From: a virus
Strand: one strand, 5' to 3'
Virus record (IMG/VR): IMGVR_UViG_3300008120_009909
Span: 1-38,358 of that record
Length of the DNA: 38,358 nt
A program made the translations under genes and the position numbers. This document shows, one piece after another, positions 2-11,751 of this stretch. The notes beneath the pieces are model-generated. The model did not search any database. It saw only the letters and a program-made list of their open reading frames with translations, and was not told the origin of the DNA. Each line of letters begins with the position of its first letter. Position 1 is the first letter of the stretch.

Positions 2-2812
2 TATTTAAACGAAAATAAAGAACAAAATATAAAAAATATTAAAAATATGATAGAAGGTTTTGAAATTATTTCTTCTTCGGTTACTGCTGAAGATTTTGAT
101 GTAGTTTTTGAAGGAGAAAATAAAATTAATTTTAACTATAAAAAAGCAGACCAATTTGATTGTAAAATAGTAGTAAAAGAAAAATATTCTAATGCTCCTA
201 TGTTTTGGTTTGATGCTACATTTGCAAATTACGGTTCATGGTGGTGTATTCCTAATTCAAACTATTCTATCAAAGATTCTTGGGTAACAGAATTAACTTT
301 AGAATTTTATTCTCCTGAAAAGCGGTTTTTATTTTCTAAAGAAGCTTTTATTAAAGAAAATGGGATTAAACCTGATATAAAACTAGATTTAGCAAATCCT
401 TTTGATTGTCTTTTCCACAATTATGATGAAATGTTTGTGGAAAAAAAATATGATTTTTTATTTAAAAATAAATTAGATATTGTTTTAGATATAGGAGCTA
501 ATGCTGGAACTTTTTGTAAATTATTTTTAGAAAACGGGGTTAATAAAGTATATGCTTTTGAACCTAATCAAGATGCTTTAATTAACTTAAATTATCTAGC
601 TTCTAAAGAATTAAATTTAAAAGTAATTGAAAAAGCAGTTCATACTAATGAAGAAGATTTAAAATTTTATATTGATAAAGGAAATACTACAATTGGCAGT
701 TTTGATCCCAATCATGTTAATATTAATAATAATGGTAAAGTAGAAGAAATTGTAGTACCTACTATTACTCTTCAAAATTTTATAAAACAAGAAAATTTAT
801 CTAAAATAGATTTAATTAAGATTGATATAGAAGGAGCAGAATATAACCTGATTGAACATCTAACAGATTCTGTATTTAATATAACTGATAGATTTTTAAT
901 AGAATGGCACAACAACACAGATCAAAGGGTTCAAAAATTAGTAGATAAATTAATTTCTAAAGGATACTCTTTAACTAAAATTTTTAACCAAAATTCAAAA
1001 GAAAATTTAACTGATTCATACCAAGATAGTACTATAGGTACTCTTTTAGCGGAAAAACAATACAAAGTTACAGTAGTTATACCTACTTATAATCATGAAT
1101 CTTATATAGAACAATGTGTTAATAGTGTTTTAGCCCAACAAACTTCTTTTCCCTTTAACATCCTAATATCAGACGACTGTTCTAATGATAATACATTTAA
1201 GATTATCCAACAGTATAAAAATCTTCCTAATGTAACCATTCATCAAACCCCAAGTAATGAGGGACCTACTCATACACGAATACATAATCTTTATAAAATG
1301 TGTTCTAGTAATTACATAGCTCTTCTAGATGGTGATGATTATTTTACAGATCCTTATAAATTAGAAAAACAAGTTAATTTTTTAGATAACAATTCTGATT
1401 ATATATTGCACTCTACGGGATGGACTTACACTTCTAAAGAGGGAAAAGATGAATTAGTTAATATGAAATCTTTAAAAGAAGAAATTTTAGATTTTAAAGA
1501 AAATATAGAAGGTAATTATGTAGGATTTGGTTTTATGTTTAGAAATATTTTAGATTGGAACTCTATACCAAATCTTCCTTATGAACAACATACTGATTGT
1601 AGATGGGTAGATAATATTTTATTACTCCAAAAAGGAAAAGCCAAAAACGAAGAATGGAAAGGAGGATCTTATCGTTTTACTCCGGGGGGCCAATTTGGCG
1701 AAAAAACTCAAGAAGAAAAAGATCAACTTAATAAAAAATGGGTGGAATTAAATAAGCAATTTTTCTTAACTCCATCCCAAGAACCTAAACCTATTATTAT
1801 AGTAGATGCATTTTTCCACGATGTAAATGTTTTAACTCAATTAAAAAAATATCTTTCTTTTATTAAAAAGTTAGATTTACCTTTAATGTTAGTTACTAAT
1901 AGTGAATTTGATTCTTCTTTAATTAAAGAGTTTGATTATATTTTATACGATACCAATAATCGACTTTTTGAACGAACCTATAATATACCTGATCAATATG
2001 TACATTTATATTTCAAAAATTCTAATTATAAATTTACTTTGGGGATAAATGGTGATCAAAAACATGGTTTATCTGTACTATCTAATTTATATCACTCAAC
2101 AAATTTAGCTAAGTCTTTAGGTTATACTCATTTTTATAGAATAGAATGTGATTGTTTTATCGAAAATTTAGATCCTGTAAAAGATATTATAGATCAAGTA
2201 AAAAATAGTAATAAAAAAGGATATGGATATTTAAATGGTAATTATTTTTCCTTTCAATTATTTTATATGGAATTAGAATATTTTACTAAAAATTTTCCTC
2301 AAATTAATAATGAACAGGATTATTGTGATTTTATCCCTAATTGGACACAAAAAGATTGGTTAACTGCAGAAGAATTCATAACCGAAATGATTAAAAATTC
2401 TGAAGGAGGAGAAAGCAATCTATTAATTAGACCTGCAGAATCTTTATACACCGATTTTGGGAATTGTTTGTGGAATACCATCAGTACTCCTACAGAATCT
2501 GACAAGATTAAAAATAATTATGTGGCTGCCCCCTTTAAATTTACAAATAATAACTCCAAAGTAGCTTTAATCACATGGAACATCAGCACCGAAGGAACTA
2601 GGTCAGCTAATTATAAAATTATACCCCCTAATGGAGAAATTATTACCTTTAGCCACACTATTACAGGAGACAACAGTCATGATATCTATATTTTAGATCT
2701 ACAACAAGAAGACACCCAAATAGAAATCAATTATGGGGGAGTTTTAAAAACCTATTCTTTAAATACTGAAAATGTTTCTTATTTAGATAATACTTATACC
2801 CCTTACTCATGA
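2..2812 (+). CDS. Multidomain FkbM methyltransferase / GT2 glycosyltransferase, 5'-partial
   Basis: The reading frame is open to the first base of the window and no stop lies before the ATG at 47, so the gene probably begins upstream; residues below count from that ATG. Residues 143-305 form an FkbM-type SAM methyltransferase (DIGANAG at 148-154, FEPN at 171-174, KIDIEGAE at 258-265). Residues 340-590 form a GT2 (GT-A fold) glycosyltransferase with VVIPTYNH, the DDCS nucleotide-sugar motif at 376-379 and DGDD at 428-431. Residues about 597-800 look like a third, divergent GT-A domain with an ECDC metal-type motif, and a short beta-rich tail follows. It overlaps the next gene by 4 nt (ATGA). 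It probably builds and methylates a glycan on a virion protein or on the host surface. The acceptor is unknown. Confidence 0.85.
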   Translation, partial: YLNENKEQNIKNIKNMIEGFEIISSSVTAEDFDVVFEGENKINFNYKKADQFDCKIVVKEKYSNAPMFWFDATFANYGSWWCIPNSNYSIKDSWVTELTLEFYSPEKRFLFSKEAFIKENGIKPDIKLDLANPFDCLFHNYDEMFVEKKYDFLFKNKLDIVLDIGANAGTFCKLFLENGVNKVYAFEPNQDALINLNYLASKELNLKVIEKAVHTNEEDLKFYIDKGNTTIGSFDPNHVNINNNGKVEEIVVPTITLQNFIKQENLSKIDLIKIDIEGAEYNLIEHLTDSVFNITDRFLIEWHNNTDQRVQKLVDKLISKGYSLTKIFNQNSKENLTDSYQDSTIGTLLAEKQYKVTVVIPTYNHESYIEQCVNSVLAQQTSFPFNILISDDCSNDNTFKIIQQYKNLPNVTIHQTPSNEGPTHTRIHNLYKMCSSNYIALLDGDDYFTDPYKLEKQVNFLDNNSDYILHSTGWTYTSKEGKDELVNMKSLKEEILDFKENIEGNYVGFGFMFRNILDWNSIPNLPYEQHTDCRWVDNILLLQKGKAKNEEWKGGSYRFTPGGQFGEKTQEEKDQLNKKWVELNKQFFLTPSQEPKPIIIVDAFFHDVNVLTQLKKYLSFIKKLDLPLMLVTNSEFDSSLIKEFDYILYDTNNRLFERTYNIPDQYVHLYFKNSNYKFTLGINGDQKHGLSVLSNLYHSTNLAKSLGYTHFYRIECDCFIENLDPVKDIIDQVKNSNKKGYGYLNGNYFSFQLFYMELEYFTKNFPQINNEQDYCDFIPNWTQKDWLTAEEFITEMIKNSEGGESNLLIRPAESLYTDFGNCLWNTISTPTESDKIKNNYVAAPFKFTNNNSKVALITWNISTEGTRSANYKIIPPNGEIITFSHTITGDNSHDIYILDLQQEDTQIEINYGGVLKTYSLNTENVSYLDNTYTPYS

Positions 2813-4920
2813 AAATTTGCCAAGTTAATCCTGGTTGCGGATTAGAAATTCCACCAAAAGGATGGGGGGCTATTGAAAAAATTGTATGGGAATTTACTAC
2901 TAATTTACGTAAACAAGGACACCAAGTTGATATAAAATGGGCAAATGAAGTTAAAAAGGGAGAATATGATTTAGTTGTAGTTCATGTTGCTAATTTAGCT
3001 CTATTTTTAGCCGAACAAGACATTCCTTATGTGTTCCAATGCCATGACCATCATGCTTTTTATTATGGAAAGGGCAGCCCAGTTTTTAAAGAAAATTTAG
3101 AAGCAATACAAAAATCTGAATTATCTATACTTCCTGCTAAGTATTTAGTAGATTATTTTGGTTCTAATAAGGCAATTTATTTTTCTCATGGGGTAGATAC
3201 TGAATTTTTTGTGCCTAATCTAGAAAAAAAACCACATAAATTACTTATGGTAGCTAATAATGGATTAGGTGGGGGAGGAGCATATGATAGAAAAGGATTT
3301 ACTGAAGGAATCCAAGTTGCTAAAGGAATAGGATTACCCCTTACAATAGCAGGACCTGAAAACAATGGGAAATTTATAGAAGAAAACCCTTGGGTAAAGT
3401 CTCATAATATTAATTGGGTGTTTAATCCCACCCAAGAAGAACTCCTTAAACTATACCAAGAGCATACAATATTCCTCCATCCTTCAGAACTTGAAGCAGG
3501 TCATCCTAATTTAACTTTGTTAGAAGCTATGGCTTGTGGTTTGCCTGTAGTAGGCTGTATGGAAGATGATTTAGAAGGCATGGTAATAACAAAAAAGAAA
3601 ACTCGTAGTCTATATGAAGGAATTAGACAGGTATTAGATAATTATCAAGAATACCAAGCTAAAGCTCTTCATACTTCTCATAAATTATCTTGGTTTAATC
3701 GAAGTAAAGAATTAATTAATTTAGTTAAAAAACCTATTGGTATGAAAGAAATTTTGGTTAAAGAATACTCCAACACTATAAAACGTTTTATTACTCCTAA
3801 ACCTTCTAAAGTTGAAGTTATCATTGATTTTATTGATGGTGCTAGATGTGAACTTAAAGGTAATTTTTCTGATTCCTACAAAATAGAATTTATTGACAAA
3901 AATAATGTAGTTTGGCAGGATACTATTCAATGTGGTATGTGGACTAAAGTTAGTAAAAAATATTTTATTCCATGGAAAATTAAAATTACAAATCTTACTA
4001 CAAATGAATTGATTTTTGATTATGATTTTAATTGTAAAAATAAAAAAGTTTATATCTATTTTGATAGTAAATCAATTGGTGATACTATAGCATGGTTTCC
4101 TTATGTAGAAGAATTTAGAAAAAAACATGGGTGTGAAGTTATTTGCTCTACTTTCCATAACGAATGGTTTGAGCCCAATTATCCTGAAATAAAATTTGTC
4201 CCCCCAGGTTACCAACCTGAAAATTTGTATGCTAGTTTTGGAATAGGGTGGTATTATTTCAATAATAATGAACTTGATATGAGCAAACATCCTCAAAATA
4301 TTTTAAATATTCCCCTTCAACAAACTGCTTCTGATATTTTAGGTTTAGATTTTAAAGAAATTTCCCCAAAACTTAAAACTCTTCCTTTATCCCCAATAAA
4401 AGAAAAATATGTAACTTTATCTATCCAATCTACTTGTCAAGCTAAATATTGGAACCACCCAACAGGGTGGGAACAAGTAATAAAATATATTCAAAGTAAG
4501 GGATATAAAGTAGCTATAGTAGATCAACATAGAACATTTGGGGCCTCTTCTTTTATGAATACTTCCCCCCAAGCTGACTATCATTTTCATGAAACTACAC
4601 TAGAAAATGTTATGTCTGTTATTAGAGGGGCCGAATTTCACATAGGAGTAGGTTCGGGGTTATCGTGGGTTGCATGGGCTTTAGGTACTCCTGTAGTATT
4701 AGTTTCTTCCTTTTCTAAACCATTTTGCGAATTTACCTCTAATTGCACCCGAATTTATAATGAATCCCCAACCTCAGGATACTTTAACACTCACAAACTA
4801 GATCCTTCAGATTGGAATTGGCATCCTTATAGAAAAATAAATTCAATGGAAGATTGGTATGAAATAGAAACCATTACACCTGAACAAGTAATAGAAGCTA
4901 TTAAAACAAATTTGTTATGA
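2809..4920 (+). CDS. GT4 glycosyltransferase fused to TibC/Aah-like O-heptosyltransferase domain
   Basis: A 703-residue fusion. Residues 1-310 are a GT4 (GT-B) enzyme: GAIEKIVWEF near the N-terminus and the C-terminal donor-binding segment with HPSELEAGHPNLTLLEA at 224-240 (E-x7-E pattern). Residues about 335-410 are a beta-rich linker. Residues 413-703 match the autotransporter O-heptosyltransferase family (TibC/Aah, GT9-like): SKSIGDTIAWFPYVEEFRKK, the GVGSGLSWVAWALGTPVV donor-site region at 613-630 and the family-typical ITPEQVIEAI end. TibC-type enzymes transfer ADP-heptose to serines of autotransporters. The cysteines that form the iron finger in TibC appear substituted here (WHP and YEI where the family has WCP and FEC, and no CxxC). 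It overlaps both neighbours by 4 nt, so it is co-translated with them. The domain calls are strong; donor and acceptor are not known. Confidence 0.85.
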   Translation: MKICQVNPGCGLEIPPKGWGAIEKIVWEFTTNLRKQGHQVDIKWANEVKKGEYDLVVVHVANLALFLAEQDIPYVFQCHDHHAFYYGKGSPVFKENLEAIQKSELSILPAKYLVDYFGSNKAIYFSHGVDTEFFVPNLEKKPHKLLMVANNGLGGGGAYDRKGFTEGIQVAKGIGLPLTIAGPENNGKFIEENPWVKSHNINWVFNPTQEELLKLYQEHTIFLHPSELEAGHPNLTLLEAMACGLPVVGCMEDDLEGMVITKKKTRSLYEGIRQVLDNYQEYQAKALHTSHKLSWFNRSKELINLVKKPIGMKEILVKEYSNTIKRFITPKPSKVEVIIDFIDGARCELKGNFSDSYKIEFIDKNNVVWQDTIQCGMWTKVSKKYFIPWKIKITNLTTNELIFDYDFNCKNKKVYIYFDSKSIGDTIAWFPYVEEFRKKHGCEVICSTFHNEWFEPNYPEIKFVPPGYQPENLYASFGIGWYYFNNNELDMSKHPQNILNIPLQQTASDILGLDFKEISPKLKTLPLSPIKEKYVTLSIQSTCQAKYWNHPTGWEQVIKYIQSKGYKVAIVDQHRTFGASSFMNTSPQADYHFHETTLENVMSVIRGAEFHIGVGSGLSWVAWALGTPVVLVSSFSKPFCEFTSNCTRIYNESPTSGYFNTHKLDPSDWNWHPYRKINSMEDWYEIETITPEQVIEAIKTNLL

Positions 4921-8581: not shown

Positions 8582-8613
8582 TTTGGTTTTAAGATAAAAA
8601 GTTCGTATCTTTA
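8582..8613 (+). promoter_or_regulatory. Bacteroidota-type promoter upstream of the tRNA cluster
   Basis: TTTGG at 8582-8586 and TATCTTTA at 8606-8613 with 20 nt between TTG and TA. No GTCAT repeat is visible here. It probably drives the small gene at 8644 and reads on into the tRNA genes. Confidence 0.7.
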
Positions 8614-8760: not shown

Positions 8761-8845
8761 GGCCGGTTGATGAAATAGGTAAACATACCACACTTAAAAT
8801 GTGGCGACCCGAAGGGTCTTGTGGGTTCGATTCCCACACCGGCTA
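8761..8845 (+). tRNA. tRNA-Leu (TAA)
   Basis: Acceptor GGCCGGT pairs with ACCGGCT. The anticodon stem CCACA/TGTGG holds loop CTTAAAA with anticodon TAA. A long class II variable arm and the T-arm GTGGG-TTCGATT-CCCAC follow. Discriminator is A; CCA is not encoded. Confidence 0.93.
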
Positions 8846-8885
8846 CCTAGAAGTTCTTTGATATATTGGCATAGGTAACTAATAA

Positions 8886-8957
8886 GCCCCTATAGTTAAA
8901 CGGATATAACAGAACTCTTCTAAAGTTCCATTCCTAGTTCGATTCTAGGTGGGGGTA
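8886..8957 (+). tRNA. tRNA-Arg (TCT)
   Basis: Anticodon stem GAACT/AGTTC with loop CTTCTAA, anticodon TCT. T-arm CCTAG-TTCGATT-CTAGG. Acceptor GCCCCTA pairs with TGGGGGT with wobbles. Decodes AGA, a favoured Arg codon in AT-rich phage genes. Confidence 0.9.
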
Positions 8958-8975
8958 CAAAAAGTTATTATTGTG

Positions 8976-9009
8976 ATATTTATGGATAGACATAAAAATT
9001 TCTATCCAT
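8976..9009 (+). promoter_or_regulatory. Late-type motif plus start-codon-sequestering hairpin
   Basis: ATATTTAT at 8976-8983 runs into a perfect 9-bp hairpin: 8982-8990 pairs with 9001-9009 around a 10-nt loop, and the 3' arm contains the AT of the HNH start codon at 9008. A transcript from far upstream would fold and hide the start. One initiating about 6-7 nt after the motif would lose most of the 5' arm. This is the logic known for T4 late genes such as I-TevI and lysozyme e. Confidence 0.5.
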
Positions 9010-9355
9010 GTGTATAAAATGTGAATCACCTGAAAAGTATTTAGATAAATCATATTGTTATGATTGTTATAAAACTGATGCTTTAAATAAGCAAAGTAAT
9101 ATTAGAAATCGTAATAGATATTTTATTTTTAGATATTTAAAATTATTTGGTAAATGTGTTGATTGTGGTAATAATGACTGGAAAGTATTAGAATTTGACC
9201 ATCTTAAAGACAAAATAATGAATGTTAGCCGAATGTATAGTAATCATTATTCACTTAAAAAAATAAAAAGTGAGATTAGAAAATGTGAACTTAGATGTGC
9301 TAATTGTCATAAAATAAAAACACGAAAACAATTAGGATGGTTTAACTTTGAATAG
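9008..9355 (+). CDS. HNH endonuclease, free-standing, within tRNA cluster
   Basis: A 115-residue protein with zinc-ribbon cysteines at the N-terminus (MCIKC and CYDCY) and an HNH core: CVDCG near residue 50, EFDHLKDK with the catalytic-type histidine at about 74, and the closing CANCHKIKTRKQ. This is the compact phage HNH family, usually mobile homing endonucleases. It lies between tRNA-Arg and tRNA-Ile, a common place for such genes. A second member of the family is at 10269. Its start codon is buried in a hairpin directly after a late-promoter-like motif, which suggests timed expression. Confidence 0.8.
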   Translation: MCIKCESPEKYLDKSYCYDCYKTDALNKQSNIRNRNRYFIFRYLKLFGKCVDCGNNDWKVLEFDHLKDKIMNVSRMYSNHYSLKKIKSEIRKCELRCANCHKIKTRKQLGWFNFE

Positions 9356-9422
9356 ATACAAAATTTACAAAATAGAAAAAATATGGCTGGGTAAGGTTGT
9401 TAATAGTTAATTTTTCGCGTTC

Positions 9423-9458: not shown

Positions 9459-9535
9459 GGGGGCGTAGCTCAGTTGGTCAGAGCAGGATGCTTATATCAT
9501 CAAGGTCACAGGTTCAAGTCCTGTCGCCCCTACCA
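9459..9535 (+). tRNA. tRNA-Ile (TAT)
   Basis: Acceptor GGGGGCG pairs with CGCCCCT. D-arm GCTC-AGTTGGTCA-GAGC, anticodon loop CTTATAT with anticodon TAT, T-arm ACAGG-TTCAAGT-CCTGT. Encoded CCA at 9533-9535. TAT would read AUA directly; bacteria usually use CAT with lysidine. Confidence 0.85.
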
Positions 9536-10256: not shown

Positions 10257-10264
10257 ATATTTAT
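10257..10264 (+). promoter_or_regulatory. ATATTTAT motif 4 nt before ATG
   Basis: The motif is followed by AAAC and then the HNH start codon at 10269. The same motif and AAAC spacer recur at 35759. No -33 box at the standard distance. Confidence 0.5.
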
Positions 10265-10268
10265 AAAC

Positions 10269-10673
10269 ATGAAACAATGCCAAAGATGTAAACAAGAAAA
10301 GTCATTAGATTTTTTTAATAATAACAAAAGAGAAAAAGATGGCAAACAAAGAGCATGTCGTGAATGTACTAAGATTGAACATCAAAAATGGTATACCCAA
10401 AATAAAACCACTCAATTAGAAAAAAATGAGGAGTTAAGAAAGAAAAAAATAAACAGATACTTAGAATTTAAAAAACAGCATAAATGTATTAAATGTGGTG
10501 ATAATAGACATTATGTTTTAGATTGGCACCATAGAGATCCTTTAACTAAAACAGCAGCTATATCAGATTTAATTGGTAGATCTGAAAAAAAATTATATGA
10601 AGAAATAGCTAAATGTGATCCTATATGTCGTAATTGTCACGCTGAGTTACATTGGCTTGAAAAAAAACAATAA
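10269..10673 (+). CDS. HNH endonuclease, second copy in tRNA cluster
   Basis: A 134-residue protein with two parts: an N-terminal zinc ribbon (CQRCKQEKSLDFF, later CRECTK) and a C-terminal HNH core (CIKCG, LDWHHRDP with the HH pair, CRNCHAELHWLE). I take the ATG at 10269 as start; a longer frame would overlap tRNA-Lys, and an ATATTTAT motif lies 4 nt upstream of this ATG. It is related in its C-terminal half to the HNH protein at 9008. It is flanked by tRNA-Lys and tRNA-Thr, consistent with a homing endonuclease that spread into the tRNA cluster. Confidence 0.82.
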   Translation: MKQCQRCKQEKSLDFFNNNKREKDGKQRACRECTKIEHQKWYTQNKTTQLEKNEELRKKKINRYLEFKKQHKCIKCGDNRHYVLDWHHRDPLTKTAAISDLIGRSEKKLYEEIAKCDPICRNCHAELHWLEKKQ

Positions 10674-11037: not shown

Positions 11038-11751
11038 ATGAAAACAGTCTTTATAGGTGATATTCATGGGCGTGATGTTTGGAAAAACATCATTGATAAT
11101 GAAACTCCTAATCGAGTTGTTTTTATGGGTGATTATTTTGACAGTTTTGATATTAGCCCCGCTGAACAACAATATAATTTTAAAGAAATTATTGAGTTTA
11201 AAGAAAAGGGTGAGTGTGAAGTTATTATGTTAGTTGGTAACCACGACTTCCATTACTACCCAGGTGGTGAACAATATTCAGGTTATCAACATGGAGCTGC
11301 CCCAGCAAATAGACAATTGTTAGAGGAAAATAAACACCACCTACAAATGTGTTATTTGATGGATAATATTTTATGTTCACATGCTGGTATTGGTTATGAT
11401 TGGTTGGTGACTCAAAATGGGTATGGTGATGAACCAATTGATGAATTTGTAAATCATATTTGGCAATATAGACCTAATTCATTTATGTTCTTTGGTCTTG
11501 ATCCTACAGGTGATAGTAAAACACAAACACCAATTTGGATTCGTCCATTGAGTTTATTGAGAGGAAATCGTGATACTTTCCTTAAAGAAAAATACATCCA
11601 AATTGTAGGTCACACTCAAGTAAATATGATTGATATTAAAGGTAAAGCAACTGGTGGTAATTATTATCTTATTGATGCTTTAGGTATTGGTGAATATTTG
11701 ATTCATGAAGATGGTGAGTTTAAATTAGGAAAATTTAATATTGAAATTTAA
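11038..11751 (+). CDS. Calcineurin-like metallophosphoesterase
   Basis: A 237-residue protein with the metallophosphoesterase motifs in order: GDIHGR at 7-12, GDYFD near 31, GNHDFH near 66, SHAG near 118 and GHTQ near 195. These supply the two-metal site of PPP-type phosphatases. Length and layout fit phage Ser/Thr phosphatases and relatives of lambda protein phosphatase. It could dephosphorylate host proteins or act on nucleotides or RNA ends; the sequence does not decide. It opens an operon of small genes that ends with thymidylate synthase. Confidence 0.88.
   Translation: MKTVFIGDIHGRDVWKNIIDNETPNRVVFMGDYFDSFDISPAEQQYNFKEIIEFKEKGECEVIMLVGNHDFHYYPGGEQYSGYQHGAAPANRQLLEENKHHLQMCYLMDNILCSHAGIGYDWLVTQNGYGDEPIDEFVNHIWQYRPNSFMFFGLDPTGDSKTQTPIWIRPLSLLRGNRDTFLKEKYIQIVGHTQVNMIDIKGKATGGNYYLIDALGIGEYLIHEDGEFKLGKFNIEI

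Follow-up and report, generated by a model that had tools for sequence, protein, structure and literature searches.

A TATTTAT motif and a predicted start-codon hairpin at an HNH endonuclease gene in the tRNA cluster of a relative of a T4-like phage: a possible late-release leader

Results

An HNH gene between two tRNA genes

The window analyzed here (the whole stretch of 38,358 nucleotides, IMG/VR record IMGVR_UViG_3300008120_009909) belongs to a virus related to immuto (Immutovirus), a T4-like Flavobacterium phage that possesses T4-like gp20 and gp23 and was the nearest annotated relative found, its helicase being 60.5% identical to that of the window. A close relative, L012, encodes a protein 95% identical to the one encoded at window position 11038. 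The features of the tRNA-cluster locus are as follows.

8582..8613, + strand: host-type promoter-like site (Bacteroidota TTTG-N20-TAtcTTTa), a pattern match of putative function
8761..8847, + strand: tRNA-Leu (TAA), by ARAGORN and Rfam
8886..8958, + strand: tRNA-Arg (TCT), left neighbor of the HNH unit, by ARAGORN and Rfam
8976..8983, + strand: ATATTTAT, putative late promoter with core TATTTAT at 8977-8983, from its sequence and the late association in immuto and relatives; flanks weak
8982..9009, + strand: 9-bp hairpin with a 10-nt loop and a 3' arm ending inside the start codon, from sequence and RNA folding
8990..8990, + strand: predicted late-transcript 5' end, placed by T4 spacing and folding
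9008..9355, + strand: HNH endonuclease of 115 aa with CxxC zinc-ribbon pairs and a DH...ANCH motif, from phrog_2255 (E 1.3e-24) and tblastn to annotated phage HNH endonucleases
9459..9535, + strand: tRNA-Ile (TAT), right neighbor of the HNH unit, by ARAGORN and Rfam

The phrog_2255 match bears out the HNH identity proposed in the preliminary description for the gene at 9008, while a search of its product against Pfam gave no match at E 0.001. The only Rfam families in the window are tRNAs, and the hairpin matches no known RNA family. Host-type promoter patterns occur at 16 sites in the window against 9.2 expected, and a similar site, TTTG...TATATTTA, lies 5' of tRNA-Leu in L012; the tRNA-cluster early transcript could be driven from the putative site at 8582, judging by its sequence. 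No terminator-like site was found between tRNA-Arg and the HNH start.

L012 shares tRNA-Leu, tRNA-Arg and tRNA-Ile, and a small unrelated ORF replaces the HNH gene between the latter two; neither a TATTTAT motif nor a hairpin was found there between tRNA-Arg and the small ORF. Close relatives hence differ at this one site in having or lacking the HNH gene, and the unit is absent from the immuto tRNA region as well. As judged by eye, the window and L012 sequences diverge at ~8970 and realign before 9390, which places the motif, the hairpin and the HNH gene all inside the variable segment. A possible remnant (GWVR) of the L012 small ORF can be discerned at 9385-9420, 3' of the HNH stop.

Two further observations concern the surroundings of the cluster. 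A second HNH endonuclease gene (phrog_2255) lies at 10270-10673, flanked by tRNA-Lys and tRNA-Thr; GTATATTTATAAAC abuts its ATG on the 5' side, and it has no strong hairpin; related genes in L015 and L016 carry TATATTTATAAATAAAAAC 5' of the ATG, likewise without a hairpin. Adjoining the tRNA cluster at 47-4920 is an unusual cargo of two long ORFs (921 and 703 aa), each with glycosyltransferase and FkbM methyltransferase domains.

The TATTTAT motif in the phage group and at 8976

The preliminary description had termed ATATTTAT a late-type motif, a label that is justified for the group because TATTTAT precedes late-region genes of immuto: it lies at most 45 nt upstream of 15 of the 42 late-region genes versus 11 of 158 others (p = 1e-5), where late genes are those in the annotated head and tail (structural) region, a definition by annotation and not by timing. 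Across five phage sequences 50 starts have TATTTAT at 9-35 nt upstream, versus a mean of 13 for permuted 7-mers; TATATTT, which overlaps TATTTAT and the host -7 element alike, ties with it for this enrichment. That the promoter motif differs from the one in T4 is likewise upheld at group level, with TATTTATA here versus TATAAATA in T4. In immuto, where TATAAATA occurs 15 times on the + strand, only 3 of the 42 late starts carry it, as against the 15 with TATTTAT. A search of the open-licence literature found no description of late promoters of Flavobacterium or Bacteroidetes phages.

At 8976 itself an exact core is set in poor flanks. The site scores 7.3 against the group late motif, below all training sites (9.6-19.7), and ranks 16 on the + strand, with nine - strand sites scoring as good; a G follows TATTTAT where A is usual. 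Two other promoter assignments were rejected for this site, namely the host type (no -33/-7 pattern match there) and the T4 gp55-dependent class defined by TATAAATA, the motif here being TATTTAT.

The poor flanks leave some room for a rival account, in which the hairpin silences HNH in the tRNA read-through RNA while the ATATTTAT at 8976 arose by chance in AT-rich sequence and does not act as a late promoter, the gene being kept low or opened otherwise. The frequency of ATATTTAT in the window is indeed at chance (12 found, 10.9 expected), and abundant tRNA-cluster transcripts would be a reason to restrain a nuclease. We nevertheless regard a chance motif as rather unlikely, since the core is exact, the 23 nt between the 8-mer and the HNH ATG lie inside the 9-35 nt range of the group, and the 5' end predicted from the motif sits exactly where the start is freed.

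A second spacing class, with TATTTAT 4-5 nt before ATG, was observed at window positions 10258, 14330, 15275, 24431 and 35760; in the group, TATTTAT stands 0-8 nt upstream of 22 starts against a mean of 4.3 for permuted 7-mers. Were the 5' end to lie 6 nt on, these motifs would be too near the ATG to leave room for an ordinary leader; they could possibly give rise to leaderless late mRNAs or act as translation signals.

A hairpin over the start codon and its predicted opening

The coordinates given earlier for a perfect 9-bp stem burying the HNH start proved correct throughout, including those of ATATTTAT at 8976-8983: the reverse complement of ATGGATAGA (8982-8990) reads exactly as TCTATCCAT (9001-9009), and the 3' arm extends over the first two bases of the ATG (9008-9010). 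When 8960-9030 is folded, the hairpin is both the MFE and the centroid structure (-14.1 kcal/mol, z -2.8, equaled by 3 of 200 shuffles), and the modeled fold is stable, given how AT-rich the stretch is. A role as intrinsic terminator was discarded, there being no terminator-like site at 8982-9009. No relatives carrying the same HNH leader were found; the viral HNH homologs found resemble the protein chiefly in its C-terminal part, have TATTTAT upstream in no case and are uninformative on hairpin conservation.

T4 late promoters have TATAAATA at -13 to -6. With this spacing, the late transcript from the 8976 motif is predicted to start at 8990, within the range 8989-8991 named in the preliminary description, and would lose eight of the nine 5'-arm bases. 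RNAs from 8989, 8990 and 8991 contain no hairpin when folded and have an opening cost of 1.4-1.5 kcal/mol. In long transcripts, by contrast, an RNA structure sequestering the start region is predicted, with an opening cost of 8.6-10 kcal/mol (10 kcal/mol for RNA from the tRNA-Arg 3' end), so that the gain on shortening amounts to 7.2 (MFE) to 8.5 (ensemble) kcal/mol. Shuffling the leader alone matched this long-versus-short difference in 3.3% of cases (p 0.033, for one gene that had been picked by eye). The positive controls, T4 gene e and I-TevII, display the same pattern more strongly (gains 11-14, p 0.003), indicating that the HNH case is of the same kind and weaker than the textbook cases.

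It could be argued that the hairpin merely follows from the AT-richness of the sequence and has no regulatory role, whether or not the motif is a promoter. Perfect 9-bp repeats with 3-15 nt loops number 12 in the window versus 5.9 expected (shuffle maximum 15), and chance pairing is common in AT-rich leaders (shuffle means 0-10 kcal/mol); the existence of the hairpin is on this count weak evidence and its position better evidence. As to position, the HNH start is the costliest to open among the 63 called starts of the window (10.9 kcal/mol, median 3.3), the second-costliest being a false start inside a tRNA, and it is 6th among 608 starts pooled over five related phage sequences. Together with the four G-C pairs of the stem in an AT-rich region and the leader-shuffle result, this makes a mere by-product an unlikely explanation. 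That the inverted repeat serves the HNH protein as a DNA operator, in the manner of I-TevI autorepression, and not as an RNA switch is very improbable; this reading was rejected along with homing-site mimicry, because, even though T4 intron endonuclease operators overlie their promoters and resemble homing sites (PMC2988022) and GGATAGA-N9-TTCTA is present also in the L012 tRNA-Arg, 8966-9015 is no more similar to the L012 region than shuffles are (178 of 200 as good).

Possible recurrence of the layout at lysis genes

Among 49 motif-bearing genes in the five sequences, 5 gain at least 6 kcal/mol; when 557 genes were assigned a mock promoter at a comparable distance, 10 did so (p 0.005). The largest gain belongs to an endolysin-family gene (phrog_33083 endolysin) of G002, which is followed by a gene for a GH19/peptidoglycan-binding endolysin; the window HNH gene has the second-largest. 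The third-largest is that of a 94-aa G002 gene with no family match, which is termed holin-like from its hydrophobic sequence only. The leaders of homologs of these two G002 genes differ in sequence and often retain the layout, as with AATATTTATAGATAAATTATTATCTATG in L105 and L106. After removal of duplicates, 12 of 40 lysis-gene leaders gain at least 6 kcal/mol versus 5 of 49 other motif-bearing leaders from the same loci (p 0.03; p 0.08 without the two discovery genes). This modest enrichment is suggestive, and not proof, of a recurrence of the motif-in-hairpin layout at lysis genes.

A candidate late sigma factor

The immuto gene immuto26A_153 (L088:6174-6872), annotated as hypothetical, encodes a sigma-70-like protein that the T4 late sigma family (phrog_234) and sigma-70 models match weakly. 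Its ortholog in G002 (reverse complement, 64822-65502) is 42% identical and gives weak phrog_234 or sigma-70 matches. On these sequence similarities, immuto26A_153 is a candidate for the late sigma factor of the group. No gp55-family sigma factor was found in the 38 kb window, and no match to the phrog_12791 late sigma was obtained, control searches likewise giving none.

Discussion

The analysis presented here concerns a leader in which a putative late-promoter motif abuts a hairpin over the start codon of a homing-type nuclease gene. With moderate confidence, the HNH leader can be regarded as the device of T4 gene e and I-TevI built with another promoter motif, where we infer promoter activity, silencing, timing and homing from the sequence and its modeled folding. 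A mobile free-standing HNH nuclease gene may have inserted between tRNA-Arg and tRNA-Ile, bringing its own control element along. Early in infection, a host-type promoter 5' of the tRNA cluster would give a long RNA in which the 9-bp stem would engage the HNH start codon, whether or not the RNA is trimmed at the tRNA-Arg 3' end, and ribosomes are proposed to start poorly there since the start codon is paired. In the late phase, an RNA polymerase programmed by the phage would initiate at the TATTTAT promoter on the 5' foot of the hairpin, and the resulting short RNA, devoid of the 5' arm, would leave the start open so that the nuclease is made late.

The preliminary description had held that the same timing device as in T4 evolved here. 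The hairpin, the predicted 5' end at 8990, the drop in opening cost and the like behavior of the T4 controls speak for the sameness of the device, and the score of the 8976 site below all training sites speaks against it; an origin at this locus is plausible because L012 is without the whole HNH, motif and hairpin unit. If the reading of a late-release leader is true, an early-silent, late-released leader would be a solution that recurs among T4-like phages and no peculiarity of T4, in settings that differ in nuclease family, promoter motif and host phylum and that match in the tRNA gap. Bacteria of the host phylum of the window make little use of Shine-Dalgarno sequences. TATTTAT also offers a testable late-promoter motif for T4-like phages of Bacteroidota. 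Only tentatively can it be proposed that these phages have a distinct late promoter, TATTTATA, which a divergent sigma factor of their own recognizes and which has repeatedly been set in start-burying hairpins that delay lysis genes and a homing endonuclease, gene classes which T4 controls likewise.

The T4-type device has been described for e, soc, 49, I-TevI, I-TevII, I-TevIII, segB and Aeh1 mobE (PMC2988022, PMC3014915). In T4 e, I-TevI, I-TevII and I-TevIII the promoter motif lies within or next to the 5' arm of a start-covering hairpin and late RNAs are made without that arm (PMC2988022, PMC3014915), an arrangement that the HNH leader is predicted to share. The T4 hairpins, however, carry TATAAATA and hide the Shine-Dalgarno sequence, whereas the HNH leader carries TATTTAT and has a weaker stem in which the start codon itself is paired. 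Aeh1 mobE, a free-standing HNH homing endonuclease gene with an RBS-sequestering hairpin (PMC2988022), resembles the window gene in nuclease type and start-region hairpin, but belongs to an Aeromonas phage, where it resides in a ribonucleotide reductase gene region and not in a tRNA cluster. Immuto, with its T4-like gp20 and gp23, carries TATTTATA upstream of late genes; unlike the window, it has a tRNA region without the HNH unit.

A counterpart in location is T4 segB, for which a start-sequestering RNA structure and a predicted late promoter have been reported (PMC2988022). Like the window HNH gene, segB is free-standing, encodes a homing-type endonuclease and sits between tRNA-Arg and tRNA-Ile, and the tRNA-Arg anticodon is TCT in both. 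The T4 gene is of the GIY-YIG and the window gene of the HNH family, the promoter motifs differ, the tRNA order relative to transcription is reversed, and the T4 tRNA-Ile reads CAT (ARAGORN) in place of TAT. Two phage groups thus have different nucleases in matching gaps and behind matching leaders, and on this comparison the resemblance may be one of convergence or of coincidence.
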